IMG/VR virus record: IMGVR_UViG_3300009034_000062
Coordinates: 1 to 48,739 of that record
Strand: one strand, 5' to 3'
DNA: 48,739 nucleotides
Origin: a virus
Under the pieces are notes generated by a model. That model saw nothing but the letters and a program-made list of their open reading frames with translations. It made no database searches and was not told the DNA's origin. A program made the translations under genes and the position numbers. The stretch's first letter is position 1. Each line of letters begins with the position of its first letter. Of this stretch, positions 9,774 to 46,164 are shown piece by piece.

Positions 9774-11414
9774 TTATTTTGACCAAAATTCTAACCCTCC
9801 CCACGCTTCTGACTTCACACAGTTATTCACTGCCCCTGCTACTGCATCACTTCCATCTTTTCCTCTTCCTGTGCGATGTTCAATCCGCTTGCCTTTCCAG
9901 TCTATCAAAAAAGGTATCTCTTCTTCAACCAAAATCTTATTATAATATGATATGAACCGCCCCTCATATATAGAGTCCTGCCAAGTCTCATAGGCTTCTC
10001 GTGTATTATCAATAGATTGAAGCTCCACAGGGATTCCTCTGGATTCCAAGTTTTGCATCATCTGAAGAGATTGATAACCATCAAAAGTCAGCATCATCAC
10101 ATAGAACCCTCTCTGCTCTATAAACTCCAAAAGCAATCCTCTAATCTGTTCAAAATTAATTTCTCCTCCAGGAGGAGCCTGGAAATATACCAGAGCATCT
10201 TGTTTAATTAAAGGAAGGTCTATGACTATCATCTCTCCTTCCTTCTTCCCTGGTACTTCCTCCTGTTTAACTTCATAAGCATGAACAAAAGAAAAAGCAG
10301 CTCTACACCTATTCTTCGCCAAATCAACATGTCCAAATCTGGGGAAATCATCAGTACATTGAAACCAAGACTTAAAACGAAGCGTTTCTTCATCCACAGG
10401 GTTAGGAAGGTCACGTGGGAATGCTCTTGTTATCGCCACACTGTTTTTAAAGAAAGCATCCTCAGCCACTGTAGGCTCACACAGGATTCGGCAAGCAAAC
10501 CTCACAGGATTCCGCTTCTTTTCTCTTGCAAAATCCGAAGCCTTTTTTGTTGGATTTATATCAAAAGTCGACCCAAAACTTGTATACACTGCTGGGTCAT
10601 TCTTACCTTCTTCGTACCTAGCTGTAATAAAATCCCCTTTAAAACGTGGGAAAGAAAGAGACACAACTTTGCCCACTTTAGGAAAACGTGTGGTTACCGA
10701 AGACATTGCAAAGTCATGAAGAGAATTAGCAGACATTGGAATATTCTTCCGTAGTCTAGTTCTCTTCAAATCTGCCACTTCTTCTTCCGTCTTAAAGGCT
10801 GCTATCTCATCTAAGACAACAATAATCAAGTTAAGTCCCTCCTGGGCTTCAGCTTCGGAATGTCCGCTTAAAAGACTTATACCCTTCTCAAACCTAATCT
10901 CGGAAGCCAGAACTTCCGACCTGCCCTTAAAGAAAGGAGAATTTCGTACATACCTCCGTAAAGGAGCAAAGAACACATTCGCTGCCTGGTCTTTAGTGCT
11001 CGCAGTATTCAACATATGAATAGGCTCAGACCCACATGACATATCAGGAGCATAAAAGTACGCTTGAGGATTCCTTAAAGCCAGAAGCAAATAGGATATT
11101 CGAAGCAACATAATCCGAGATACAAAATCTTTACCACTGCCCTTACCCCAGAGAAGCACCAACTCATTCACATACCTCAATCGCTTCCAGCCCAAACTTC
11201 TCAATGTTGGAGTAAAATAAATCTGAGTTGCATAATCTATTGCTTCATATTGTTTAGGAGAAAGCTCAGGAAGCCCCAGAAACCGCTTATCCCGAATAAA
11301 CTCCTTTAAAGGAACAGGTTCAAACTCAAAGATAGCCTTCTTCGCCTGACTGGTTCGCTCCTCCGTCCCCAACTCATCTAATGCCTTTTGAAACACTCCA
11401 CTACTAGGCAACAT
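9774..11414 (-). CDS. terL: Terminase large subunit
   Basis: A 546-residue packaging motor. N-terminal ATPase: Walker A GKGSGKD near residue 89, preceded by LVLLW, and a Walker B-like strand LIIVVLDEIAAF near residue 195 with the catalytic Glu. The C-terminal RNase H-like nuclease begins near residue 345 with GHVDLAKNRCRAAF (first metal Asp); LTFDGYQS and the late GSDAVAGA supply further acidic residues. It cuts concatemeric DNA and pumps it into the prohead. The start overlaps the stop of the previous gene (TAATG), with GAGGAG upstream. The portal follows 15 bases after the stop. Confidence 0.88.
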   Translation of the reverse strand: MLPSSGVFQKALDELGTEERTSQAKKAIFEFEPVPLKEFIRDKRFLGLPELSPKQYEAIDYATQIYFTPTLRSLGWKRLRYVNELVLLWGKGSGKDFVSRIMLLRISYLLLALRNPQAYFYAPDMSCGSEPIHMLNTASTKDQAANVFFAPLRRYVRNSPFFKGRSEVLASEIRFEKGISLLSGHSEAEAQEGLNLIIVVLDEIAAFKTEEEVADLKRTRLRKNIPMSANSLHDFAMSSVTTRFPKVGKVVSLSFPRFKGDFITARYEEGKNDPAVYTSFGSTFDINPTKKASDFAREKKRNPVRFACRILCEPTVAEDAFFKNSVAITRAFPRDLPNPVDEETLRFKSWFQCTDDFPRFGHVDLAKNRCRAAFSFVHAYEVKQEEVPGKKEGEMIVIDLPLIKQDALVYFQAPPGGEINFEQIRGLLLEFIEQRGFYVMMLTFDGYQSLQMMQNLESRGIPVELQSIDNTREAYETWQDSIYEGRFISYYNKILVEEEIPFLIDWKGKRIEHRTGRGKDGSDAVAGAVNNCVKSEAWGGLEFWSK

Positions 11415-12436
11415 TAGCTACTCCTCTGCACATCATCGTAACCCTGGTATAAAGCTCGACCAAAAGAATATCGAACATTACGGAGACTCTTATGAGTATT
11501 ACCACAGACAAACTCCGCTCCCCAACCAGATTCTACTGCTTTCCTTGCAAACTGTCTCAAACTATAGTAATCAACCTGGGGGGACAAACAGCTTGCTATC
11601 TTTACTCCTCGCTCATTCTGAGGAACTGTCTCTTTCAACTTAAAGGCTTCTCTAAAATAACTAAATCCCTCTCCTCCCAACTTACCAAACAAATTCTCAG
11701 AAACCACTAACGGTAAATTCTTACCAAAACGCCCAACAATACTATCTACAAGGGCACTTCTCTCCTTATTACGAAAGCCACTACTCAAATCCCAAACTAC
11801 TCGAAACTTCTCGCTTTTCTCCATATACCATAACAAAATATCTTTATATTTCGGAAGACTCTTTAGTAGATATGGAATCTTATCACTAAAAGGCGTAATA
11901 AAAATAACTAAACCTCGCTCCGTCAGAATAGAAAAAATTAACTCACACAACTTCCAATGAGCCCCATCTTGAAACTGAAAATTCACCCTATTAAGATTTT
12001 CCAAATGTTGAGAAGTAAATAAAACAAACCTTGTTCCGTTGTTCAGGTTTTCAGCCAAACGATTAGCAAAAAATCGAATATCCGAAACAGTATGAGTAAA
12101 CAAAGAAGGGATACTAAACATAAGAGGAACACTCACATCTACAACATTAAAATTAAGTGTCTTTTCAAGAAGAATTTTATCCTTATCTAAGAGCTCAAAC
12201 TTCACATTCCCCGAACCTTGCACGTTAAGAAAGAAACGATTCCAAGAATGTTGGTTTACTATAATATTCTCTACATTACTAGAGGTAACACGAAAATCTA
12301 TTCTCTGATTATACACTCCCTTAAGAATAAACTCTAAATAAATCCCCGTAAAAGGAAGCCACTGTTTTCGTCTCTCCAAAAACTCAGTATCAAACTCTCC
12401 CCTCTCTCCCAGGTAAGCATCTACCCGCACCTTCAT
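11414..12436 (-). CDS. Unknown protein before the large terminase
   Basis: A 340-residue soluble protein that I cannot assign. The N-terminal ~100 residues look beta-rich (FRVTSSNVENIIVNQ, VKFELLDKDKILLEKTL). The rest alternates strands and helices in a way that could be a TIM-barrel-like or Rossmann-like domain (RFVLFTSQHLENL, GLVIFITPF, FRVVWDLSSG, LPLVVSENLFG, AEFVCGN). It sits between the small terminase candidate and terL and is coupled to terL by TAATG. A role in packaging or a phosphodiesterase/hydrolase activity are guesses. GGAGGGTTCAGGT precedes the ATG. Confidence 0.75.
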   Translation of the reverse strand: MKVRVDAYLGERGEFDTEFLERRKQWLPFTGIYLEFILKGVYNQRIDFRVTSSNVENIIVNQHSWNRFFLNVQGSGNVKFELLDKDKILLEKTLNFNVVDVSVPLMFSIPSLFTHTVSDIRFFANRLAENLNNGTRFVLFTSQHLENLNRVNFQFQDGAHWKLCELIFSILTERGLVIFITPFSDKIPYLLKSLPKYKDILLWYMEKSEKFRVVWDLSSGFRNKERSALVDSIVGRFGKNLPLVVSENLFGKLGGEGFSYFREAFKLKETVPQNERGVKIASCLSPQVDYYSLRQFARKAVESGWGAEFVCGNTHKSLRNVRYSFGRALYQGYDDVQRSS

Positions 12437-12870: not shown

Positions 12871-12899
12871 AAGATAGACAAACCTTAGCGTTCTGTCAA
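12871..12899 (-). promoter_or_regulatory. Sigma70-like promoter for packaging and head genes
   Basis: Minus strand: TTGACA (12894-12899) within the last codons of dnaX, 17-base spacer, TATCTT (12871-12876), with a TATAAT a few bases further on. It separates the replication block from the packaging block, so it is a good candidate for the start of a structural transcript. Confidence 0.6.
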
Positions 12900-14000
12900 G
12901 ATTGACATAACCTCTTCGCCCTTTAGCGGCTTGGATTCAGAGGGAAGTTGTAGCAACCCTCGAACAATGTCGGATATTTCGTTAAACAAAATCTTCGGCA
13001 CTGCCATACCCTGCAACATAACACGATTAGACATGAAGCGATTAGACATAAAAACATAAGTACACTTCAACATCGCTCCATAAACAACACTCTCTCTACT
13101 CCCTGACTTCAAAGCTTGCCGAAGAAGACTTCCTAAATAATCAACAAATTGTTTCAGAAAAAGGGTAAAATCATCCTGGAACTCATGGAGTTCCTCAAAC
13201 AGACTCATCGCCTTTTCATAATTTCCTTCTTTTAATTGCATAATAATATCTTTAACAACTAAGATGTCCCCAAAAACTTCTTTCACCAATTTTTTTGTAA
13301 CCGTACCCTTTCCAAGCACAGATAATTGTTCAAGCGATACAATCACCTCTCGCAAATTATTGTTGGACAAATAATACAATTCCTTACACAGCTCTACTGA
13401 ACAGGAGGTCTTCTCTTTTTCCAAAACTGAATGTAAGAACTTTTCAATTTCAGCCCACCGAATTGGTTTAAAGCGAAACTCCAGGAGACGGCTTTTAACC
13501 GTATCAATAATCTTATCGGTCTCTGTCGTCACCAGGATGAAGAAAACTCGCTTAGGAGGCTCCTCCAAGAGCTTAAGCAGACCATTAAACGCCTCCTTAG
13601 ACATCATATGACACTCATCTAGGATTATAACCTGATACTCTACAAAAGAATAAGAACTGAGGCGGTCACGTAGCTTTCTCACATTCTCAATCGAACCAAA
13701 GAAAGAAGCATCTAATTCCATAACCCCTCCCAGTCCTTGTATTATAGGATAGCAACTTTCACATACCCCACAAGGTTCTACTCCTACTCGTTCATCACAA
13801 TTTAGAGATGCAGCGATAACTCTAGCCATTGTAGTCTTTCCGATACCACTACCCCCTCCAAAGAGAGCTCCTACAGGAAGAAGTTTCTGCTTCTCATAAT
13901 AGTTCCTCAAAATTATTTTAAAGAACTCAATAACATGCTTTTGCCCCAAAATCTCTTCAAACTTCTTTGGTCTGTATTTTATTGACCACATTATACCCAT
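12885..14000 (-). CDS. dnaX: Clamp loader gamma/tau-like subunit
   Basis: 371 residues from the ATG at 14000, chosen because GGAGG stands 6 bases upstream; a GTG at 14003 is also in frame. Bacterial DnaX features are clear: WSIKYRPKKFEEILGQ at the start, Walker A GGGSGIGKT at 48-56, a zinc site with Cys 68, 77, 80 and 83, LDEC (128-130), a sensor/arginine finger at 170-171 (KSRL), and domain III helices. It is shorter than bacterial tau and lacks the long C-terminal polymerase/helicase-binding domains, so it resembles gamma. It would open the phage beta clamp. It overlaps the radical SAM gene by 44 bases. Confidence 0.9.
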   Translation of the reverse strand: MGIMWSIKYRPKKFEEILGQKHVIEFFKIILRNYYEKQKLLPVGALFGGGSGIGKTTMARVIAASLNCDERVGVEPCGVCESCYPIIQGLGGVMELDASFFGSIENVRKLRDRLSSYSFVEYQVIILDECHMMSKEAFNGLLKLLEEPPKRVFFILVTTETDKIIDTVKSRLLEFRFKPIRWAEIEKFLHSVLEKEKTSCSVELCKELYYLSNNNLREVIVSLEQLSVLGKGTVTKKLVKEVFGDILVVKDIIMQLKEGNYEKAMSLFEELHEFQDDFTLFLKQFVDYLGSLLRQALKSGSRESVVYGAMLKCTYVFMSNRFMSNRVMLQGMAVPKILFNEISDIVRGLLQLPSESKPLKGEEVMSILTER

Positions 14001-16542
14001 CACAAACCTCCACTAACAATCCTTCTCCCTTATCTTCTCTTTCCCAAAGTCCTAGCTTTTTAACTGGGAATCTAAGAATTCTTTGAAAAGAAATATGAGG
14101 AAAAAATCCTTTTAAAAAATAACGAATTCCAACATCATGGCTCAGCCAAACTCTTATCTGTCCATCCTCTCTTATATGAACGTCCCAGAAAAATATATCC
14201 TTCTTAAGGTCAATCTCTCCCTTTCGTACCCCAGAGTAATACCTTGTTTTCGGCTGAAGAACCTTCACCTCTTTGGCTAACGCAAACTGCCTCCAAGCTT
14301 CTCGTAGCTTTTCCCTATCCCAAATACTTGTCTCCACCTCATAAGAACTTATACAATATAGTAGCTTTGGTTTTTTAACATAAAGCTTCTTGTACTGAAC
14401 AAGCTCCATCCCTGGCAGAGTATCACTATTCAAAGATTGAAATTCATGTTGGCTAATCTCTCGTCGAGTGCCCATTATAAAATAGTCATATCCACTATAC
14501 CAATTCTTATTATCTCTATCACTAAAAAACACCATCTTATTTACAGACAAAGGAAAATCCTGCAAGTAAGCTGCCCTATGAAATACTGCTTTAAAATGAG
14601 TGTTCGGTACAATCTGACAAGACTCTGGTGTCCTGTATATTACCAAATACCATTGAGCACAAGACTGCTCAGCACTCAAAGGAGTATCTAGAGCACACAC
14701 ATCCATCTTTGGCTTAACCTTCATCTCCTTCTTATCAAACTCCCCCGACTTTATTTTGAGATACGTCCTAAGTAAGGATGCCTTTGGCACTCCTCTATTC
14801 ACAATATCCCAGGGGAAAACTTCATTACTAGCCCGTTCTCTCATAATATAGTCCCAAGAAAAATCTGTCTCCTTCATCCACTTTGTTATAACCTTCTTCA
14901 TAGAATGACAGAACGAAGCATAGTAAGGTTTCTTCAATTCTACAATAGCCTTAACAAATGCCTCAGCAAATCGGGTATCTCCTAAATGCATACCCTGCAT
15001 CACCCATATAAAGTTCTCCTCAAACTTTCCACCTCCCCCCTGTGGATACTTTACAATCCGTTTAATAACTTTACCCGCTTTATTCTTAGGATTAAATTTA
15101 TCTAAAGAGTTCTTAATATCCATCCAGGGTTGTCTCTGTTCTATCGTGGGCTTCTTCCACTGAAGAGGAGTACAAGGCTCTACAAAAAGAGGAGTCCAAC
15201 TAACCTTTATTTGTATTTTAGAAGCAGTGTCTCGCATTCGAATAACCTTCTTTAGCAAAGAGAAAAACTCTTCATAGTCCTCCCAAGTTTCATCTATGTT
15301 AGCAAGCATAAAAAACTTAATTCGCTTATACCCCTTAGTGTTCATCGCAATCTGACACGCTCTCAAAATCTCCTTCTCAGTAATTCCTTTTAGAAGACGA
15401 TTTCTCAAACGCTGGGACACTCCTTCAACACCAAGAGCCAACTGATTCATTCCCAATTTACTTAAAAAACGGTCAAACTCTTGGTCACTCGCAAAAGCAT
15501 CCACTCGCATAGAAAGGGGGTCAACAAATCGGCTATATTTTGCCAGTTCATTTATCAATCCTCTCTTCTCCCCATAGTAAGCAAACTCAGTAGCGATTGG
15601 GCACAAAGACACCCCTCCCCCCTGTTTTCTATTCTCCGTTAAGGCTTTCACCATTACATCTTTACAGCGTTCTCGATAAGGTCGGTACTTCCAACCAATA
15701 CCGCAGAAAGAACACGCTCCTCGGCACCCTCTTGAAATTTCTACCTCCCCTAATCCCATTGTAGTATCCGTATAGGAAGGAATCGGCTTTGTATACATAG
15801 GAGCATTATCCAAGTCTTTACACTTAATTGCTTCAAATTTCACAGGAAATTTCGAAGACTTGGGTTTCCACTCAAGAAACTTTTCCTTATCATATTTCGG
15901 GGTATAAAACTGAGGACAAAATATATAATTATATTCTTTCTGCAACTGCTCCAACGTCCAACAATTAAGAATACCTTCTAAAATCTGAAACAGTCCAGGC
16001 TCAGCATCCCCTAGATAAATCATGTCAGCTACAGGATAAGCAATGCAGAAATTACCATACATTGCAGAACCCCCCACCATCACCATTGGGTACTTTGACT
16101 GTTCCCGCTCTCTTCTCAGCACAGGAATGCCACTCATCTCAAGCTGAAGAATAAAATTAACCCAGGGAGGAAGAAAACTCAAAGAAGTAGCAATTATATC
16201 AAAATCCCCTGCTGAATGTTTTGATTCCACGCTAAACAAAGGATACTTATTCCCTTTTGCACTAAAAAGTTTATATTCTTTTTCTGTGCTAGGAAAAAAC
16301 GCCCTCTCACAGACAACATCCTTTCGCCACTCATTAATCATCTGGTAAAGTAGAGGAAGAGTTTGGTTCCCTCTAAAATCCTCATAGCGGTAGGGAGCGA
16401 CAAGAAGTATCCTCAGCTCAGCAGAATCCCAGTCTCGATGAAATGTATTAGGCTCTCGTCCTAAATAACACTGAGGCAAATCCAGAACAGTCTTCTTTTC
16501 TTCAAGAAAATCTTTTATCTCATCTGGCGACCTATTAAACAT
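13957..16542 (-). CDS. Large radical SAM protein with B12-binding-like N-terminal domain
   Basis: 861 residues. Residues ~20-210 follow the front of the bacterial 'TIGR03960-type' radical SAM family: YLGREPN, a Rossmann-like LRILLVAPYRYED, ERAFFP, YPLFSVES, FDIIATSLSF, SGIPVL, VMVGGSAMYGN, and LGDAEPGLFQILEGI. Residues ~275-282 carry the radical SAM cluster motif CxxxCxxC (CRGACSFC), followed by a barrel with LALGVEGVSQRLRNRLLKG. The C-terminal ~300 residues are unassigned. The family's reaction is unknown. Finding it in a phage replication block, 1 base after a uracil-DNA glycosylase gene and overlapping dnaX, suggests a nucleic acid or tRNA/rRNA-modifying role, but that is inference. Confidence 0.85.
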   Translation of the reverse strand: MFNRSPDEIKDFLEEKKTVLDLPQCYLGREPNTFHRDWDSAELRILLVAPYRYEDFRGNQTLPLLYQMINEWRKDVVCERAFFPSTEKEYKLFSAKGNKYPLFSVESKHSAGDFDIIATSLSFLPPWVNFILQLEMSGIPVLRREREQSKYPMVMVGGSAMYGNFCIAYPVADMIYLGDAEPGLFQILEGILNCWTLEQLQKEYNYIFCPQFYTPKYDKEKFLEWKPKSSKFPVKFEAIKCKDLDNAPMYTKPIPSYTDTTMGLGEVEISRGCRGACSFCGIGWKYRPYRERCKDVMVKALTENRKQGGGVSLCPIATEFAYYGEKRGLINELAKYSRFVDPLSMRVDAFASDQEFDRFLSKLGMNQLALGVEGVSQRLRNRLLKGITEKEILRACQIAMNTKGYKRIKFFMLANIDETWEDYEEFFSLLKKVIRMRDTASKIQIKVSWTPLFVEPCTPLQWKKPTIEQRQPWMDIKNSLDKFNPKNKAGKVIKRIVKYPQGGGGKFEENFIWVMQGMHLGDTRFAEAFVKAIVELKKPYYASFCHSMKKVITKWMKETDFSWDYIMRERASNEVFPWDIVNRGVPKASLLRTYLKIKSGEFDKKEMKVKPKMDVCALDTPLSAEQSCAQWYLVIYRTPESCQIVPNTHFKAVFHRAAYLQDFPLSVNKMVFFSDRDNKNWYSGYDYFIMGTRREISQHEFQSLNSDTLPGMELVQYKKLYVKKPKLLYCISSYEVETSIWDREKLREAWRQFALAKEVKVLQPKTRYYSGVRKGEIDLKKDIFFWDVHIREDGQIRVWLSHDVGIRYFLKGFFPHISFQRILRFPVKKLGLWEREDKGEGLLVEVCDGYNVVNKIQTKEV

Positions 16543-16543
16543 T

Positions 16544-17122
16544 TTATTCCAAAAGCTTTATAACTACACCCATTATTTTCTTCAACTGAAAAAACTGACT
16601 TCGATTATAACATACATAAGCAGGGTGAATACTAGGAATAACATGAAACCCCATCTTATGTCGAAAGACCTGTCCGATATGACTAGCCACATGTTGAATT
16701 CCGTTGAAATACCAGTTAGTACATGCTCCGAAAGTAACCACAACTTTAGGCTTAATTGCTGAAAGACTCCGCTTCAAAAATGGAACACATGTTCTCACTT
16801 CCTGGATAGAAGGCAACCTATTCCCTTTGGTATGACAAAGATAAAGATTCGTCACAAAAACATCAGGTCTCTCTACTTCATACTCCATTAACATCTGGTC
16901 AAAAACTTGCCCCGCATTTCCCACAAAAGGACGACCAGTTAAATCTTCAGTTCTTCCAGGGTTCCTGCCTACAAACACAAGGTCTGCATCTATATTCCCC
17001 TCTCCTGGAACAGGAGAAGTACATTCCTTTCGAGCAGGACAAGCAGAGCAATTTAGAACTTCTTTTCTATACTTCTCATACCATGTCCCAGCAATATCAG
17101 TGGGATTCCAACTTACTCGCAT
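16544..17122 (-). CDS. Uracil-DNA glycosylase, family 4-like (Fe-S)
   Basis: 192 residues from the ATG at 17122, which has GAGGG 6-7 bases upstream; an ATG at 17134 has no binding site. Four Cys for a 4Fe-4S cluster are visible (25, 28, 96, 112). The motif region GRNPGRTEDLTGRPFVGNAG is the family's active-site loop, with GRNPG in place of the usual GEAPG. SIHPAYV near the end is the His-Pro motif. It removes uracil from DNA. The start overlaps the RecU-like gene. A phage that carries this enzyme is unlikely to use uracil in its own DNA. Confidence 0.88.
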   Translation of the reverse strand: MRVSWNPTDIAGTWYEKYRKEVLNCSACPARKECTSPVPGEGNIDADLVFVGRNPGRTEDLTGRPFVGNAGQVFDQMLMEYEVERPDVFVTNLYLCHTKGNRLPSIQEVRTCVPFLKRSLSAIKPKVVVTFGACTNWYFNGIQHVASHIGQVFRHKMGFHVIPSIHPAYVCYNRSQFFQLKKIMGVVIKLLE

Positions 17123-17654
17123 TCTCACCCTCATATATAGGAGTTATATAAGACAAAATCCTTTCAAAATTCCAGTACTCCTCCCCCCTCTTTTTAGGAA
17201 CAATTAAAATATTTTCATCATCCAAAATCTGCTGAAAAGGAATGCTCGCTGAATCTCCCGACTCGTCTAAAGCAACAAAATGCATCACATCCATAATCGC
17301 CACAAAGTTCACTCTCTTCATCACCTCAAACTGTTTCTGATGCTTCTCTGACACATCATACTTGCGATAATTAATCACAATATAGGCTCCACCACCATTC
17401 TGATAAACTTCCATAAGAGAGTCAATCTGGTATGTAGTCACGTTATCGAAAGCAAACCCCGTCAGGGATTTCATCCACTTCAACTCAAACGCCATGAAAC
17501 GCCCATCAACAACTGCATAACAATCATAAGGTTTTCTAGGGACGAATCTGGAGTCCCCCACTCTCGGCATATCAGGAACCTTCACAAAATGAACTTTAGG
17601 ATACCAGTACATAAAAGAAGTCCGCCATTCCTTCTGAAAAACTGTTTCTCTCAT
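17097..17654 (-). CDS. RecU-like Holliday junction resolvase / PD-(D/E)XK nuclease
   Basis: 185 residues. The nuclease core is readable: KPYDCYAVVDGRFMAFELKW supplies the Asp (PYDCY) and the E-x-K (FELK) near residues 42-58, and YQIDSLMEVYQNGGGAYIVI resembles the 'HQ..~L......Gg.~~~~i' helix-strand of RecU. It would cut branched intermediates made by the phage recombinase. The ATG overlaps the SbcC C-half stop (ATGA). The final ~30 residues overlap the start of the UDG gene. Archaeal Hjc-like enzymes are the alternative. Confidence 0.75.
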   Translation of the reverse strand: MRETVFQKEWRTSFMYWYPKVHFVKVPDMPRVGDSRFVPRKPYDCYAVVDGRFMAFELKWMKSLTGFAFDNVTTYQIDSLMEVYQNGGGAYIVINYRKYDVSEKHQKQFEVMKRVNFVAIMDVMHFVALDESGDSASIPFQQILDDENILIVPKKRGEEYWNFERILSYITPIYEGENASKLESH

Positions 17655-18292
17655 TTCATTACCTCCACAATAGTCTTTCCGTCTCTTTGCACAAAATGGT
17701 AAAGCTTATCAGCGTAGGCTCCGTAATCACCAACATGTGCCAAAAGAACAACCTGAATATCGAGCTTCTTTGCCAACTCCTTGAGTAAAGATGACATATT
17801 CTCATGATACCTCTCCGATAAATGCACCATAGCGGTGTCCAGGAGGAGGAAAGGGCTCAGCACATCCTTCATAGCAATTACAAAGAAAAGCTGTAAAAGA
17901 ATGCTTACTACCTCAGCAACTCCTCCCCCCTTCGCACCCACGACATCGCTTTGGAGGTCATTGGTTCGGATGTAGAATTCAACCTTTAGGTCTTTCCCTT
18001 CTACACCCAGTTCGGTGATAAACTGGTAGCTCGCTCCAAAGACTGTAGATAAACCATAACTTATAAAAGTCTCCAACTTACTCAAAAGCTCCTGTTCCTG
18101 CTCACCTCCTAAAGATTTAAAAAACTCTACAACCTGTATCAAAACGGTGCTCAGCCCCTTCTTCTCATCCACAGACAATCGAATTTTTACTGTCTCAGTC
18201 TCTTTCACTTCTCCTTTTATCTTTTCCTTCTCCGCCATAGAAATCAACTGAGAGAGCCGTTTCTCCAAGCCAGAAATAATCTCTCTTTTCAT
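17651..18292 (-). CDS. SbcC/Rad50-like ATPase, C-terminal half (split gene)
   Basis: 213 residues with the C-terminal half of an SMC-like ATPase and no Walker A. After a short coiled coil (~1-75) come an ABC-type signature region (GAKGGGVAEVVS, 119-130), a Walker B strand (FLLLDT, 148-153), a D-loop-like LSERY, and the His switch VVLLAH (186). The Walker B position that normally carries the catalytic Glu is Thr153. The N-terminal half with the Walker A and half zinc hook is encoded 3 kb upstream (21373-22320), so two chains would form one ATPase. The start overlaps the sliding clamp stop (ATGA). Confidence 0.8.
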   Translation of the reverse strand: MKREIISGLEKRLSQLISMAEKEKIKGEVKETETVKIRLSVDEKKGLSTVLIQVVEFFKSLGGEQEQELLSKLETFISYGLSTVFGASYQFITELGVEGKDLKVEFYIRTNDLQSDVVGAKGGGVAEVVSILLQLFFVIAMKDVLSPFLLLDTAMVHLSERYHENMSSLLKELAKKLDIQVVLLAHVGDYGAYADKLYHFVQRDGKTIVEVMK

Positions 18293-19380
18293 TTGTTAAC
18301 CATAGGAACCAGAGCCTTGCTATCGTCACTTTTGAGTACGAGAAATTCCTTATCAATAGCAACCAAAACTGACTCATCTGTGATTACCTGAAGAGCCTCA
18401 AGGAGAAGGAGCCATTTCATATCAAAACTCCGTCTAACTTCTTTTTTATTCCCTTGAAGATTAATCGGGAATGTTTCCTGGCTTTTATTTTTAAACTCAT
18501 CTTCAGCACTTAAGGTAAGTTTATTATTTTCCACTTCAAAATGAATCTCACCTGACACTTCTTTCGTTGTAAGGCTAATCCGATTGACCATAGCTTTCAA
18601 CTTTCCAACCCTCGTAAGGAACACCCCCTGTTTCTCCTCATTAAGCTTCTTCAATAAAACAGACTCGCTTGTCACAGGTACGTGGGAATGCTTACATGAA
18701 AACAAATCCTGGTTCATCTTGAAGAAATAAAAATTCCCTGTCTCCTCAAACTCAACTGTTCTCGCACCAGACAATCTGATAAACTTAATTAGTTCTAAAG
18801 CAATGATAGGCAAAGTCAATTGAAACCCTTTAGGAAGATGTGTAACAATCTCCTGATACCGACTCCCATTAGATGCCCAACAACGACCTCCTACGAAGGT
18901 GAGCTGTTTCAAATTATCCTGTATCTGTCCTCTAGAAGCTGCATAGTTAACCCGCTCCAGAGCTTTAACAAAGTTCTGAGCATCAAGCTTCATCACATTT
19001 TCTTCCTCTCCAACTGCTATCGACGGATACTTCGACAAATCGTTAAGCTTCAAGCTTCCCTTATAACTTCCCGCTTCAATGGATACTCGGTCTTTGGTAA
19101 GTAACAATCGAACCTCATCGCCATCTAACTTAGGTACTAACTCTCCAAACCTTTCTGCTTCAATCAAGACTTGTGTTGGAACTTCCATACTGATTACTTT
19201 TACTTTATCCGTATGAACAATCGCAGACAATTCTGTATCTGTTCGTGCTACCTTCAAAACATTTACATCTAATTCTAAAAGAAAACTTCGTAAAAAAGAC
19301 TCAGCGTCTGTCCCCACCAAAACTGTTCCAACTTTCCTCAAAAGATGCTCCAAAAAATCTCTCTTAACTATTATCTCCAT
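18289..19380 (-). CDS. dnaN: DNA polymerase sliding clamp, bacterial beta-type
   Basis: 363 residues, the standard length of bacterial DnaN. Three repeats of the clamp fold can be followed. Family signatures include MEIIVKRDFLEHLLRKV at the start, VLKVARTDTELSAIV, GSYKGSLKLNDLSKYPSI (domain 1/2), TDGSR-like WASNGSRYQEIV, and an end ALVPMVNK, comparable to the YLVMPMRL terminus. It encircles DNA and tethers the polymerase. T4-like phages use a PCNA-like clamp, so a beta-type clamp is unusual. It is coupled to its neighbours by TAATG and ATGA overlaps. Confidence 0.88.
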   Translation of the reverse strand: MEIIVKRDFLEHLLRKVGTVLVGTDAESFLRSFLLELDVNVLKVARTDTELSAIVHTDKVKVISMEVPTQVLIEAERFGELVPKLDGDEVRLLLTKDRVSIEAGSYKGSLKLNDLSKYPSIAVGEEENVMKLDAQNFVKALERVNYAASRGQIQDNLKQLTFVGGRCWASNGSRYQEIVTHLPKGFQLTLPIIALELIKFIRLSGARTVEFEETGNFYFFKMNQDLFSCKHSHVPVTSESVLLKKLNEEKQGVFLTRVGKLKAMVNRISLTTKEVSGEIHFEVENNKLTLSAEDEFKNKSQETFPINLQGNKKEVRRSFDMKWLLLLEALQVITDESVLVAIDKEFLVLKSDDSKALVPMVNK

Positions 19381-19700
19381 TATAAATCCTCCAAAATATT
19401 ATTTGTACCTTTCGGTTCATCTGCTCTAAACTCACTCACGACACCCTCATACTTTTGAATCTTCTCAGATAGAACATCCATTCTAGTATCTAGCTCCTTC
19501 TCAAGCTTCAAAAGGAAAGCTTCCACGTCTTTAGGAGAAACCTCCTTCCGCTTCAACAGTTTTTTAATTTCCTTCTCTATTTTCTCCTTCTCCTGTTCAG
19601 AAACCTTCTTGTTCGCCTGAGCCACAAGAATTCGCTTCTCCAACTCCCTATGACTTTCTCGTAACTGATTATACCGCTCTCTATAAGTCAAATCGGACAC
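19380..19700 (-). CDS. Small coiled-coil protein in the SbcCD/clamp cluster
   Basis: 106 residues, almost entirely heptad-like coiled coil rich in Lys, Glu and Leu (EKIEKEIKKLLKRKEVSP, LEKELDTRMDVLSEKIQKYE), ending in NNILEDL. The start is a GTG at 19700 with AAAGG 6 bases upstream; no ATG is available nearby. It overlaps the nuclease gene by 20 bases. It could supply the coiled-coil arm missing from the split SbcC, or act as an accessory subunit; this is inference from position. Confidence 0.7.
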   Translation of the reverse strand: MSDLTYRERYNQLRESHRELEKRILVAQANKKVSEQEKEKIEKEIKKLLKRKEVSPKDVEAFLLKLEKELDTRMDVLSEKIQKYEGVVSEFRADEPKGTNNILEDL

Positions 19701-20454
19701 CTCCTACCTTTGTTTTTTGCACTTTAGAATAACTGTCTGAAGGTTCCTCACACCATCGTTGCACAGGACAACCCCAGCAGTCCTTAGCAGTGATTTCCCA
19801 ATGCTCTGTCTTTATAAGCTCAATAAGCTGCCACAGCTCCTCTTCAAAGCTATGCAAGATAGATACTGTCCAATCCACTTCTTTCAAATGCTGTTTCATC
19901 AGAGGAGCGAGAAATGCCAACTTTTCTGTTTCATCACCACAATTTTTTAACAACCAAGCAAAGAAATAAAGCTGAAAAGAATCCAGATAACGGAAAGACT
20001 GTGTTATCTTTAAATCCCAAATTGCTTTTTCATCAGGAAACCATATATCTAATTTTCCTTTGAACTCGATACCATCGAGCTTAAAAGAATCACTTCTCTG
20101 AACTACAATCTTTCTCTCTGGCAGATTTTCAGCAAAAGCTGCATCTTGGAGCCTATTCACACTGATTCTCAACTTCCGAATCAATTTATCTTTATCCTCA
20201 AAATCTCGGTAACGCACCAAGACCTTACCAGCGAACCACTTGAACCAGCCTTCAGCTTTACCCTCCATCCAGTCTGTTTCATATCCCTGCTTCACCCACT
20301 TATTAAATAGTTGGTCTGCACAAATCCCAACAATAAAAGGGCGGTGGTCTACTTTATCTCTAGGTATCACCTTATCCACATACTGTAATTTTGCACGCCT
20401 ATGACATCTTTTATATGTTGATAAGAAAGTATACGAGATAGGTATATCAATCAT
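19681..20454 (-). CDS. Cas4/RecB-like Fe-S PD-(D/E)XK exonuclease
   Basis: 257 residues. The opening SYTFLSTYKRCHRRAKLQYV is typical of the RecB/Cas4 nuclease group, with the first cluster Cys near residue 17. The catalytic region is FKGKLDIWF ... AIWDLKITQ (D..., D-x-K) around 130-150, followed by the QLYFFAWLL helix. The C-terminal CWGCPVQRWC supplies three more Cys, completing a 4Fe-4S 'iron staple'. It would process DNA ends for recombination with SbcCD and RecA/UvsX. The ATG overlaps the SbcD stop by 8 bases. There is no CRISPR array or other cas gene here, so an adaptation role is not supported. Confidence 0.82.
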   Translation of the reverse strand: MIDIPISYTFLSTYKRCHRRAKLQYVDKVIPRDKVDHRPFIVGICADQLFNKWVKQGYETDWMEGKAEGWFKWFAGKVLVRYRDFEDKDKLIRKLRISVNRLQDAAFAENLPERKIVVQRSDSFKLDGIEFKGKLDIWFPDEKAIWDLKITQSFRYLDSFQLYFFAWLLKNCGDETEKLAFLAPLMKQHLKEVDWTVSILHSFEEELWQLIELIKTEHWEITAKDCWGCPVQRWCEEPSDSYSKVQKTKVGGVRFDL

Positions 20455-21376
20455 CCATCTCCTCCAAAATCTTAATTGCTTCTTTCTTTATCCGTCCAGA
20501 AACATTTTGTTTCTCTATAAAAATCTTCAACTCCTCTTTTGACATACCTTTCGGGATTGTCAACGTCTCAATATAATCAACAAAACTCTGTATCGCCTTC
20601 TCTTGCTTAACAGCCTCTCCTTTCTTTTCCATTTTAAAAATCTCATCTGGAGATTTCACTTTAAGCTCGTACAACATAGCTTTGACCTCTGTTCCCACAA
20701 CCTCAACAATAGCATAACAAACTTTACGTTCAAGAGATTGGTCAATATTCAGGACTCCTCGGCTCAATGCACCTGGAGCCACTAATTTACCATGATTCAC
20801 CTGATAGTCATGAAGATGTCCAAGTAGGAGTAGTTCAAAATAAGAATCCAACATCTCTGGAGGCATCGTTAGGAACTTATACTTCTTTTTCTTCTCCGCA
20901 ACTGAGGCATGGAACACCCCCACATCCACACCATCATGGGGAGCCACGTTCTTCGCCACAAAAGCATCTAAAGAATCCAGAGAGAAGAAGTCCCCTCCTC
21001 CATAACACCACAGATTCACTCCCTTAAAGTGACCAATCCAGTCATGCATTACACGAACAGTAGGAAGCTTACAAAGTGCCCCTAAAGGATTATACTTAAG
21101 CTCCTCAATCCGTTTATCAAAATCATGATTACCTGGAACAATGAGTAGCCTCGGAAACTCTCGATAAATCTCCGCCAACCGATTAAAGAGATAATAAGAA
21201 ATCTTTTCAGGTTTCTTTTGATGAAATACATCCCCTCCGCACACCACTAAATCACACTCCTTCGCTGGCTTAATTAACTGCTCCTGCTTCTTTAGAATAT
21301 CTTCACAATACGTACTCATTCTCATAAGAGGAGGAGTATCCGAGTTATGGGGGTCTGTAAAAAATAATATCTTCAC
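20447..21376 (-). CDS. sbcD: SbcD/Mre11-like nuclease
   Basis: 309 residues. All calcineurin-type phosphoesterase motifs are visible: FFTDPHN (D-x-H), CGGDVFHQ (GD), VPGNHDFD (GNHD), VFHAS, and LLGHLHDYQ (GHLH). It is the exo/endonuclease partner of the SbcC ATPase. The start is a GTG overlapping the SbcC N-half stop (GTGA), with GAGGTGAAGGG upstream. The C-terminal ~70 residues are charged helices and may bind the coiled-coil base of SbcC. Confidence 0.9.
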   Translation of the reverse strand: MKILFFTDPHNSDTPPLMRMSTYCEDILKKQEQLIKPAKECDLVVCGGDVFHQKKPEKISYYLFNRLAEIYREFPRLLIVPGNHDFDKRIEELKYNPLGALCKLPTVRVMHDWIGHFKGVNLWCYGGGDFFSLDSLDAFVAKNVAPHDGVDVGVFHASVAEKKKKYKFLTMPPEMLDSYFELLLLGHLHDYQVNHGKLVAPGALSRGVLNIDQSLERKVCYAIVEVVGTEVKAMLYELKVKSPDEIFKMEKKGEAVKQEKAIQSFVDYIETLTIPKGMSKEELKIFIEKQNVSGRIKKEAIKILEEMDD

Positions 21377-27376: not shown

Positions 27377-28141
27377 TCACACCTCCAATTCCTTCTTTTC
27401 TGACTCTGTGCCCCACCGTCTTCGTTTCTCTTTAATAGCACTATTAAGCCAGAAAATATTCTTAACCAGATAACTCTTATACTGCTTCATGTACTCTAAA
27501 ACAATCTCACGAACTTTCAAGTCCTTAATCGCCAAAGTCTGTCCTACTACACTCACTGCATTAATCGCAGAACCATGTAGAAAAACAGGAACATGCTCTT
27601 GTTTTCCAGGCACACATCCCGAAGCATGAATCATTTTTGTATAAGGTAGCCAGTACTTAAGTACGTTAAAATGACAGAGCTCAGAAGCAAGGTGGGAGAA
27701 GTCAATACATAGCCCCATCCAATCTGTTTGAAAATGCCTACCAAAATCCGCCAACAGTCGAAACGGATTACCCTGCCCTGTCCTCTTTGAACGGAAGGAT
27801 TCCAGACACAAACAATACTGCTCCTCATCCACCACACTATCAGCAATTGCCATTAAATCAGAAGCCCAGGGATGCACCACAAACAAATCCACTTCAAAAA
27901 CTTTTGCTAAATTCTTCACAATCCCTGTCTCATCAACATAATCTTTGTGTGTCAAGCCTTTCGGGAGATGTATTGAAGAAACATACTCAGATGGGACATC
28001 CAACAGAGCATTGACTAAATCCAAATCTTTAAGCTCGTAGAACGCCAACTCTACATTAAACTTATACCCTTTAGTGAACTCAACAACAAATTCTACATCT
28101 TTTTTATCAGCAACAAACCAACTGATGCTTCCCTTAATCAT
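27377..28141 (-). CDS. TIM-barrel, AP endonuclease family 2 / sugar isomerase-like protein
   Basis: 254 residues. The alternation of strands and helices, with metal-ligand-like residues at strand ends (FVVHPW, CLCLESF, LCIDFSH, MIHASGC, EHVPVF), resembles the AP endonuclease 2 / xylose isomerase-like barrel, as in endonuclease IV: H, E, D/H, H, D/H order. If correct, it could be a DNA repair enzyme acting after the uracil-DNA glycosylase; many barrel members act on sugars instead. The ATG overlaps the transglycosylase stop by 8 bases and has GGAG upstream. Confidence 0.6.
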   Translation of the reverse strand: MIKGSISWFVADKKDVEFVVEFTKGYKFNVELAFYELKDLDLVNALLDVPSEYVSSIHLPKGLTHKDYVDETGIVKNLAKVFEVDLFVVHPWASDLMAIADSVVDEEQYCLCLESFRSKRTGQGNPFRLLADFGRHFQTDWMGLCIDFSHLASELCHFNVLKYWLPYTKMIHASGCVPGKQEHVPVFLHGSAINAVSVVGQTLAIKDLKVREIVLEYMKQYKSYLVKNIFWLNSAIKEKRRRWGTESEKKELEV

Positions 28142-40104: not shown

Positions 40105-40391
40105 TAATTCTCTGTCTCATCTAGATAGTTAGGAAAAGTGATGCCTGGGAGCTTTTCTGCACTGAGAATCTCAAACTCAGCCCACAAGCCTTCCGTCACT
40201 TCTGGACAAGGTTCTCCTTTAGCCAAACATTTAATAGCCATCATCCTGAAATTCATCGCTCCACCAAAAAGACAGGCTCGCTTAATATATCCAATACATG
40301 CATAGCACATCAAATCGCAGAAGGGTTTATTGCCAAGAAAGCCTATCATCGGTTTACCAGTACAACAGTGCAAGGTACATACTCCCTGCAT
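40104..40391 (-). CDS. Cys-rich protein, possible Fe-S or zinc site
   Basis: 95 residues. Eight or more Cys in the first half: CTLHCC, FCDLMCYACIG, and RACLFGG, plus AIKCL and EPCPE. The density suggests a metal cluster. ATG 40391 has GGAGAGCCC upstream. It overlaps the delta-like gene by 38 bases. Function unknown. Confidence 0.55.
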   Translation of the reverse strand: MQGVCTLHCCTGKPMIGFLGNKPFCDLMCYACIGYIKRACLFGGAMNFRMMAIKCLAKGEPCPEVTEGLWAEFEILSAEKLPGITFPNYLDETEN

Positions 40392-41313
40392 GGGCTCTCC
40401 ATCTCAGTAAAGAAAATACCAAATACAATCGACGATATAAGCTCTTGTAATCCACTTTTTTCAGTTCCTTTTGGTACTCACAATAGCGGTGTAAACGTAT
40501 GCCCAATTTAGAAGAAGCCGTCGTTGCCTTCATAAAACTCGTACTCTTAACACGAAGTCGCAAAATAAGTTCCTGGTATAACCTTTCAAAAAATTTTGAT
40601 GAATCTACTCCTCGAAAACTGTATTTCAACACCTCCTGCTTCCCTCTACTAAAAAGACTCTTAACAAGAAATGTCTCAGGTTCTCTTCTAAGTAAACCAA
40701 GCAGATGTAAATCTGATACCCTGAGCTCTTCCCTACCAAGAGCCTCTAAAATAAAGATTATATTAAATAAAGTATCATGCGTCATAGCTTCTGATGTCAA
40801 ATCGAACAGAACAGATTTATCTGGAATTTTATGAATACCAGAAACTACAAGGCGGGCTGTAACAAAACCACCAAACTTAAGTCCTCGCATCTCCAGGTCT
40901 GGCTTCTTAGAACAATCCACCACAACTCCCTTACTGAACTTTTTGTATATCTCACGAAAAGTAGGCAATATTTCTGAGGACGCATCAACAATAACTGAAC
41001 GCCCTGACAGCCTTGACAGCCCATCTAACAGCTTTTTAGTCGTCTCCTTGCCTACAAGGTCAGGAGCCCATACAATCGTCCTTATACCGAAAGCAGACGC
41101 ATGAAGAATATCTAAAGGATTCTCCTTAATCTCATCAAGATGATACCACACTCTTAAAGTATCTCCCTTACCCTGCTTCTTATTCGTATTTTCAATCCTT
41201 CGATGAAGAACCTTTAAAGCATCCTCTCGGAGACGGGACTCTCCTCCCACCAAAGCGTACACCTTATGCTTTGCGGGTGCTCCGAAGTTATGAAGAAATT
41301 GTAGATACGTCAT
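40354..41313 (-). CDS. Clamp loader delta-like subunit
   Basis: 319 residues. The beginning HKVYALVGGESRLREDALKVLHRRI matches the front of HolA/delta ('yll.G.E.~L...~l~~l'). A Rossmann-like AAA+-like domain follows (TIVWAPDLVGKETTKKL, VIVDAS, GVVVDCSKK), then a helical middle and a collar-like C-terminus (LRLHRYCEYQKELKKVDYKSL). It has no Walker A, as expected for delta. Together with delta-prime (4-base overlap) and dnaX it would form a phage clamp loader. The identification is by pattern and context. Confidence 0.6.
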   Translation of the reverse strand: MTYLQFLHNFGAPAKHKVYALVGGESRLREDALKVLHRRIENTNKKQGKGDTLRVWYHLDEIKENPLDILHASAFGIRTIVWAPDLVGKETTKKLLDGLSRLSGRSVIVDASSEILPTFREIYKKFSKGVVVDCSKKPDLEMRGLKFGGFVTARLVVSGIHKIPDKSVLFDLTSEAMTHDTLFNIIFILEALGREELRVSDLHLLGLLRREPETFLVKSLFSRGKQEVLKYSFRGVDSSKFFERLYQELILRLRVKSTSFMKATTASSKLGIRLHRYCEYQKELKKVDYKSLYRRLYLVFSLLRWRAHAGSMYLALLYW

Positions 41314-45208: not shown

Positions 45209-45365
45209 CGTTCTCCTTTTCCTCGATTACAGTGACCTCTCCCGAAAAAGTAATAACACCGTTCTCAATTTTTTCTATCTCAAAGTGCTCACACATCCAC
45301 ATTAGCTCACCAAATGTTAATGGTTTCTCCACATCTATCTCTAGAGGAGGTTCTTCCTTACCCAT
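45183..45365 (-). CDS. Small acidic protein
   Basis: 60 residues from ATG 45365, with GAGGCAGGAC upstream inside the methyltransferase end. Begins MGKEEPPLEIDVEKPLTFGE and ends in an acidic tail. It overlaps both neighbours (8 and 26 bases). Unknown role. Confidence 0.6.
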   Translation of the reverse strand: MGKEEPPLEIDVEKPLTFGELMWMCEHFEIEKIENGVITFSGEVTVIEEKENDESNQTNG

Positions 45366-46164
45366 GTCCTGCCTCAATTACTTCCAGCAACCTCATCCCG
45401 ATTGCTGTAATGACTGGGATGCTCACCGCATTGCCCATCAGCCTCATCCTCACGCTGTCCAACCTGTCGGAAAACCTTGAAGTCGTTCTGCCGACTCTGG
45501 TAGCATCTTTTTTAATGTGCCATCCCTGCTTAGAATGTCGGGGACGTGCCCACCCCCTTTTGGTGTCCTCAACGTCGGTGAATAGGCTGTGAAAATACGA
45601 AGCTGTTTTTCGCTGAATCCTTTGTACTTGTTGTGGATTAAAGCGACAGTCTCTCCGAACACAGAAGATAAACACACGCTTTCGATTCTGCGGTAAACCA
45701 AACGCAAGAGTGTTGAGCACGGCATATTCCCACTCATATCCCAGCTTCTCGATTTCGATAAGAGCAAAGGCTTTGAACCTAAGAAATCCCTCAACATTTT
45801 CGAGTAGCATGTATTTTGGCTGTTTCGCCTCTGCAATTCTGAACAGTTCAAGAAGTAACCTGCCCTCCTTGCCTTTGTACCCTTTGCCCGTCCCCTGACG
45901 GGAAAAATCTGGACAAGGGAATCCCGCAGTGAGGAGGTCATGGTCTGGGATGTCGTCTGGGTGAATCTCATGTATATCCCGCTCAACTAGCTCTCCATCT
46001 CCGAAGTTCTTTCTGTACACGTCACACGCATCTCGGTCATTATCATTCGCCCAGATACACCTGAACTCTTCGCCAGCCCGCTCCAGCCCAAGCCTGAATC
46101 CACCAACTCCGCAGAACATCTCAATGAATGTGATTTCATTTCTTTTTCTTAAGTAAGTACTCAA
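45358..46164 (-). CDS. DNA (cytosine-5) methyltransferase
   Basis: 268 residues from a TTG at 46164 (GAGGGAT upstream); the next ATG would cut into motif I. Motif I FCGVGG (17-22), motif IV PCPDFS with Cys84 (usual PCQ..S), ENVE (122-125), QNRKRVF (motif VIII), and GNAVS near the end (motif X) are all present. It methylates C5 of cytosine in a short target. It is shorter than M.HhaI (327), so the target recognition domain is small. No restriction enzyme gene is near, so it is probably an orphan that protects phage DNA or regulates it. Confidence 0.88.
   Translation of the reverse strand: MSTYLRKRNEITFIEMFCGVGGFRLGLERAGEEFRCIWANDNDRDACDVYRKNFGDGELVERDIHEIHPDDIPDHDLLTAGFPCPDFSRQGTGKGYKGKEGRLLLELFRIAEAKQPKYMLLENVEGFLRFKAFALIEIEKLGYEWEYAVLNTLAFGLPQNRKRVFIFCVRRDCRFNPQQVQRIQRKTASYFHSLFTDVEDTKRGWARPRHSKQGWHIKKDATRVGRTTSRFSDRLDSVRMRLMGNAVSIPVITAIGMRLLEVIEAGHG

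Follow-up and report, generated by a model that had tools for sequence, protein, structure and literature searches.

A phage radical SAM protein with a predicted TruA-like C-terminal domain, encoded beside dnaX

What is a radical SAM enzyme doing inside the replication operon of a phage? The question is raised by a linear viral contig of 48.7 kb (IMG/VR record IMGVR_UViG_3300009034_000062, 48,739 nucleotides; the whole of it is hereafter the window), in which a first-pass annotation, made from the sequence alone, had picked out a long radical SAM protein. That annotation read it as a radical SAM family of cells sitting in a phage replication operon, and suggested that it modifies a nucleic acid. 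Here we ask what the protein is made of, how it is distributed and inherited among phages, and which substrate is the most probable.

The gene and its neighbourhood

The reading frame of 861 residues is genuine, has the coordinates first given for it, and lies on the minus strand together with the genes around it (Table 1). Its position between a uracil-DNA glycosylase (UDG) gene and dnaX was also correctly described: a single base separates the UDG stop at 16544 from the radical SAM ATG at 16542, while at the other end the dnaX start codon and its likely ribosome-binding site are located inside the radical SAM frame. The most probable start of DnaX is the ATG at 14000, which is preceded by GGAGG; the two genes would thus overlap by 44 nucleotides.

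Table 1. Features of the radical SAM gene and of the surrounding replication operon in the window
Feature	Coordinates	Strand	Evidence or remark
Radical SAM protein fused to a predicted TruA-like domain (861 residues)	13957..16542	minus	Genuine ORF
Predicted N-terminal B12-binding-type Rossmann region, residues ~43-228	15859..16416	minus	PF19864; cobalamin radical SAM alignment from ~residue 41
Radical SAM core, residues ~260-505	15028..15765	minus	PF04055; structure superposition
CxxxCxxC cluster motif (CRGACSFC), residues 273-280	15703..15726	minus	Three Cys kept in 27/27 phage sequences
Predicted C-terminal TruA-like (DUF2344-like) domain, residues 628-852	13987..14661	minus	AlphaFold model; hhalign
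DnaX clamp loader	12885..14000	minus	TIGR02397, E 1.1e-71, 242 bits vs cut-off 250
Family-4 uracil-DNA glycosylase (UDG)	16544..17134	minus	TIGR00758 above cut-off; PF03167
RecU-like Holliday junction resolvase	17097..17654	minus	PF03838 above gathering score
SMC/RecN-type ATPase, 213 aa, conserved in phage module	17651..18292	minus	PHROG 15167, E 5e-21
DnaN sliding clamp	18289..19380	minus	PF02768 and PF00712 above gathering scores; TIGR00663 below cut-off
PDDEXK nuclease, conserved in module	19681..20454	minus	PF12705
SbcD-like metallophosphoesterase, conserved in module	20447..21376	minus	PF00149

Three minor observations concern this neighbourhood and its functions. The slot before UDG is occupied by the RecU-type resolvase in the window and by a RuvC-like protein in a relative (L007, 6879-7430; a weak match), which is possibly a non-orthologous replacement. 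Between dnaX and the terminase gene, a 340-aa protein (11414-12436) is conserved in all relatives of the window lineage; it has no family match, and its AlphaFold model (pLDDT 86) combines a beta-sandwich with a TIM barrel, in the manner of a glycoside hydrolase. Finally, a possible HolA (delta subunit) is encoded at 40354-41313 (TIGR01128, E 0.003, below the cut-off), so that DnaN, DnaX and this protein together may give the phage a clamp-loading set of its own.

Domain composition and bacterial relatives

By sequence, the protein belongs to the radical SAM superfamily, as PF04055 (Radical_SAM) matches residues 267-430 with 51.6 bits against a gathering score of 29.5, and the CxxxCxxC motif, first noticed as CRGACSFC, is intact. 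Ahead of it, PF19864 (Radical_SAM_N2) exceeds its Pfam gathering score at residues 64-194. In an AlphaFold model of the window protein built with 27 sequences (pLDDT 86, pTM 0.89), residues 44-525 superpose on MgmA (PDB 9ccb, Z 19.9), the methyl-coenzyme M reductase glutamine C-methylase, and the N-terminal part of the model is matched by CysS, TsrM, OxsB, MTAB, MiaB and RimO at Z 14-16 (14.2 for RimO, which acts on ribosomal protein S12). PF19864 and the fold shared with MgmA, CysS, TsrM and OxsB over residues ~41-525 (Z 14-20) point to a B12-binding-type Rossmann domain ahead of the radical SAM barrel, in line with the B12-domain-like front proposed at first. Reading residues 1-260 revealed no DxHxxG motif, so it is from the fold that cobalamin binding is predicted, and an enzyme of the cobalamin radical SAM type is what we infer. 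Similarity to these proteins is confined to the fold: MgmA, CysS, TsrM and OxsB are 11-16% identical to the phage protein, have other substrates and lack a TruA-like domain. The methylthiotransferases MiaB, MTAB and RimO are alike in their radical SAM core and N-terminal shape (Z 14-15), but the phage protein remains below their NCBIfam cut-offs and does not have their N-terminal three-Cys cluster domain.

Profile searches against radical SAM subfamilies, which the first-pass annotation had advised, bear out the resemblance to the TIGR03960 family that it had named. The NCBIfam profile (rSAM_fuse_unch) aligns with residues 21-601 at E 3.4e-65, and six relatives score 207-233 bits against it. 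Chance is no explanation: six further viral contigs have orthologues with 51-71% identity at this position, with the order of the genes unchanged, two of these contigs apparently being a single phage. Since its 220.7 bits amount to less than half of the curated cut-off (462.3 bits), the phage protein counts as a relative of TIGR03960, and not as a member of the family as curated.

In bacteria, TIGR03960 and its partner TIGR03936/DUF2344 form a widespread pair; in one bacterial phylum, of which 81 genomes were sampled, TIGR03960 exceeded its cut-off in 75. Within the stretches read, gene context separated the bacterial genes (L066-L083) into two paralogous types. Those of type 1 are followed by DUF2344 and mostly by RNase E/G, then by L21, Prp and L27 where the stretch reaches that far; those of type 2 are without DUF2344 and adjoin a laccase-domain protein and YggS. 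A natural fusion of type 1 (L070, 876 aa) has the domain order of the phage protein. Besides this order, the bacterial pair and the phage protein have in common Radical_SAM_N2, the CxxxCxxC motif, an RPxRER-type motif and a DUF2344-like C-terminus. They differ in that the phage protein is fused, shows only about 25% identity, and is encoded in a replication operon instead of the bacterial RNase G - L21 - L27 operon.

The first-pass annotation had not mentioned the C-terminal domain. In the AlphaFold model, TruA superposes on residues 628-852 (VIA-align Z 11.0, 185-200 residues, 3.3-3.8 Å) and Pus1, Pus3, Pus10 and TruB match the same residues at Z 8-10, so that this region is predicted to have the pseudouridine synthase (TruA/Pus1/Pus3) fold. 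A direct sequence match between the phage C-terminus and TruA was not found. Neither PF10105 (DUF2344; 16-18.5 bits vs cut-off 23.8) nor TIGR03936 (17.2 vs 71.9 bits) reached its threshold, both leaving traces at residues 683-789, and homology became visible profile-to-profile only, when a profile of phage C-termini aligned with bacterial DUF2344 over 206 columns (hhalign E 2.5e-5, probability 75%). DUF2344 itself looks TruA-like: it can be aligned in register with TruA over 53 columns (E 1.3e-4), and chains of TruA and Pus1 rank near the top of its PDB sequence matches, weak as these are. Our search of the literature on TIGR03960 and DUF2344 found no paper giving a function, and one useful paper, on Pfam clans, which groups DUF2344 with families forming the pseudouridine synthase domain (PMC7955657).

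Although the phage domain shares its fold with the tRNA pseudouridine synthases TruA, Pus1 and Pus3 (Z ~9-11), it is 5-11% identical to them and is joined to a radical SAM enzyme. The catalytic Asp, which belongs to the RTDxGVH loop, is expected within residues 673-684; in 27 phage proteins, aligned in an inferred register, this loop contains no conserved acidic residue, only S674 and G684 being kept. An active pseudouridine synthase half is therefore ruled out, and we take the domain as a probable RNA-holding relic.

Distribution and inheritance among phages

Wider scans of viral sequences recovered many further copies, with 23-33% identity. Of 43 phage records, 37 encode a long form that includes the TruA-like domain and six a short form of ~650 aa that lacks it. 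Wherever the region downstream is visible in a long-form record, dnaX follows on the same strand (36/36; the distance ranges from -13 to 3273 bp, with a median of 725, and in one case is counted across the contig ends), the 37th record being a contig end. As several records are near-duplicates of one phage, the independent lineages are fewer, roughly twenty. One common gene order is SbcD, PDDEXK nuclease, DnaN, 213-aa ATPase, radical SAM gene, DnaX. As a clue to function, the DnaX neighbour is general, whereas UDG, found in 8 of the 43 records, is not, and is ruled out as the key partner. In the reverse direction, the gene is present upstream of dnaX in 33 of 69 informative phage dnaX loci and missing in 36, in some of which the ATPase directly abuts dnaX, and in others of which unrelated genes are found in its place. 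The long-form gene is thus bound to dnaX where present, but many modules do without it.

Some observations stand apart from this pattern. The short form (L127, L128, L129, L147, L150 and L154) is TIGR03960-like, forms a clade of its own and is without the dnaX neighbour. In one module without the radical SAM gene, the ATPase and DnaX are immediately preceded by an RtcB RNA ligase (L198, 4701-6053). No PHROG family matches the radical SAM protein, and no convincing copy was found in isolated phage records: a match in 'Microcystis phage MaAM05' (MW495066.1, 1-12603; L018) was set aside, its neighbours being ispG, ispH, mqnC and trpS, and the record looks like bacterial DNA at that end.

In pairwise comparisons, the gene diverges in step with DnaX (Mantel r 0.96, n=21), DnaN (0.95) and the ATPase (0.94), and dN/dS is 0.04-0.14 in four close pairs. 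The gene is under purifying selection and is inherited together with the replication genes. In a tree of 54 proteins, the long phage form, with 27 rows, is a separate clade on a long stem (SH-aLRT 100), and the short phage form, bacterial type 1 and bacterial type 2 also fall apart from one another. Against the phage profile, no cellular copy exceeded 240 bits, whether in the 398 genomes from one phylum or in the 81 from a second, and long-form phage copies with complete reading frames reached more than 700. The scores and the long stem rule out a recent capture from a host, and place the protein in a virus-only clade, at a distance from all cellular copies sampled; closer relatives in cells may exist, since sampling in depth was limited to two phyla. 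It was therefore inaccurate to describe the protein as belonging to a cellular family lodged in a phage operon. More generally, phage replication modules can thus include a radical SAM enzyme as a core gene passed on vertically, and not as an occasional metabolic passenger.

The window belongs to a lineage that has changed within this clade. Outside the lineage, each of the 21 full-length, long-form phage sequences has a four-Cys motif (CxxxC..CGxC) after the radical SAM domain, and 19 of the 21 end in a zinc-ribbon-like C-terminus, one of the two exceptions being a gene cut by the contig end; all six window-lineage proteins lack both. The four-Cys motif corresponds to the C-terminal DCRxxxCxxCG of most aligned bacterial TIGR03960 members. 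Cysteines C241, C314 and C457 are specific to the lineage, and C396 is shared with one other group. This makes the window lineage a derived variant in which both Cys motifs were lost, and its chemistry may differ for that reason.

Possible substrates

Our best reading, to which we assign a probability of about 0.5, is that the protein is a cobalamin-type radical SAM enzyme which modifies a structured RNA, the TruA-like domain being catalytically inactive and serving to hold that RNA. The radical SAM half (residues ~41-525) would make a carbon-centred modification, for example a C-methylation; the TruA-like part (residues 628-852), devoid of the conserved catalytic Asp, would hold the RNA, probably a host tRNA or rRNA; and the enzyme would be produced along with the replisome proteins, its gene being a constant member of a presumably early operon. 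What leads us to this reading is how the tail is predicted to fold, the company of RNase E/G and ribosomal proteins in the operon of the bacterial relatives, and the enzyme family to which the catalytic half belongs. The nucleic-acid modification put forward by the first-pass annotation gains support from this C-terminal TruA/Pus1/Pus3 fold, which argues for RNA more than for DNA. Several facts weigh against this reading: the substrate of MgmA, the best structural match, is a glutamine in a protein; the genes around it are always DNA-replication genes, which would fit DNA or replisome proteins equally well; half of the comparable phage dnaX loci are without it; and the missing sequence match to TruA, the missing DxHxxG and the Cys motifs lost in the window lineage count against it too.

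An alternative that overlaps with this reading if the substrate is RNA is that the protein is a phage-encoded replacement for the TIGR03960/DUF2344 pair of the host, acting on the host substrate. The domain order of the natural bacterial fusion and the frequency of the bacterial gene in the phylum sampled speak for it, but a separate deep clade at ~25% identity, the loss of the C-terminal Cys motif in the window lineage and a wholly different gene neighbourhood speak against it, and it ranks below the main reading in probability. Still less probable is that a base of the phage DNA is modified during replication, for instance against restriction, by an enzyme whose TruA-like domain was repurposed for DNA binding. 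The fixed place beside DnaX and near DnaN, and the UDG directly upstream in the window lineage, would agree with this, but the C-terminus is predicted to fold like enzymes acting on RNA, and UDG is not conserved. A DNA hypermodification route of the thymidylate-synthase type is unsupported, the corresponding hydroxymethylase (PF00303) being found in 1 of 36 records, many of them fragments; and, apart from a lineage-specific C5 DNA methylase, annotation of part of the window brought up no further gene for DNA hypermodification. The least probable is the modification of a protein (clamp loader, clamp or ribosomal protein), which the similarity to MgmA and RimO and the proximity of L21 and L27 in bacteria and of DnaX in phages would suit, but which leaves the whole TruA-like domain unexplained.

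Returning to RNA modification, the fusion in phages of the TIGR03960/DUF2344 pair with its TruA-like domain leads to a concrete prediction, that of a radical modification of RNA. That the conserved substrate is a tRNA encoded by the phage itself is unlikely, as the window has a tRNA-Met, one relative a tRNA-His and the others no tRNA. PADLOC gave no match for the protein, and on that ground a defence or anti-defence gene was ruled out. We tentatively propose, at somewhat less than even odds, that cobalamin radical SAM enzymes with a dead TruA-like holder constitute an undescribed family of phage RNA-modifying enzymes, which would have a permanent place in the replication operons of many uncultured phages and would modify host RNA during infection, perhaps tuning translation or shielding tRNA from anti-phage nucleases. 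If true, phage biology would gain a further class of enzymes that modify RNA.

Two further genes of the window are worth reporting. A C5 cytosine DNA methylase is encoded at 45358-46164 (PF00145, E 4e-60) and is not found in the relatives compared. At 27377-28141, a TIM-barrel protein conserved in the window lineage shows weak similarity to AP endonuclease 2 (E 2e-4) and to CbiR, a cobamide-remodelling protein (E 0.006); its product could act in base-excision repair or in cobamide chemistry.
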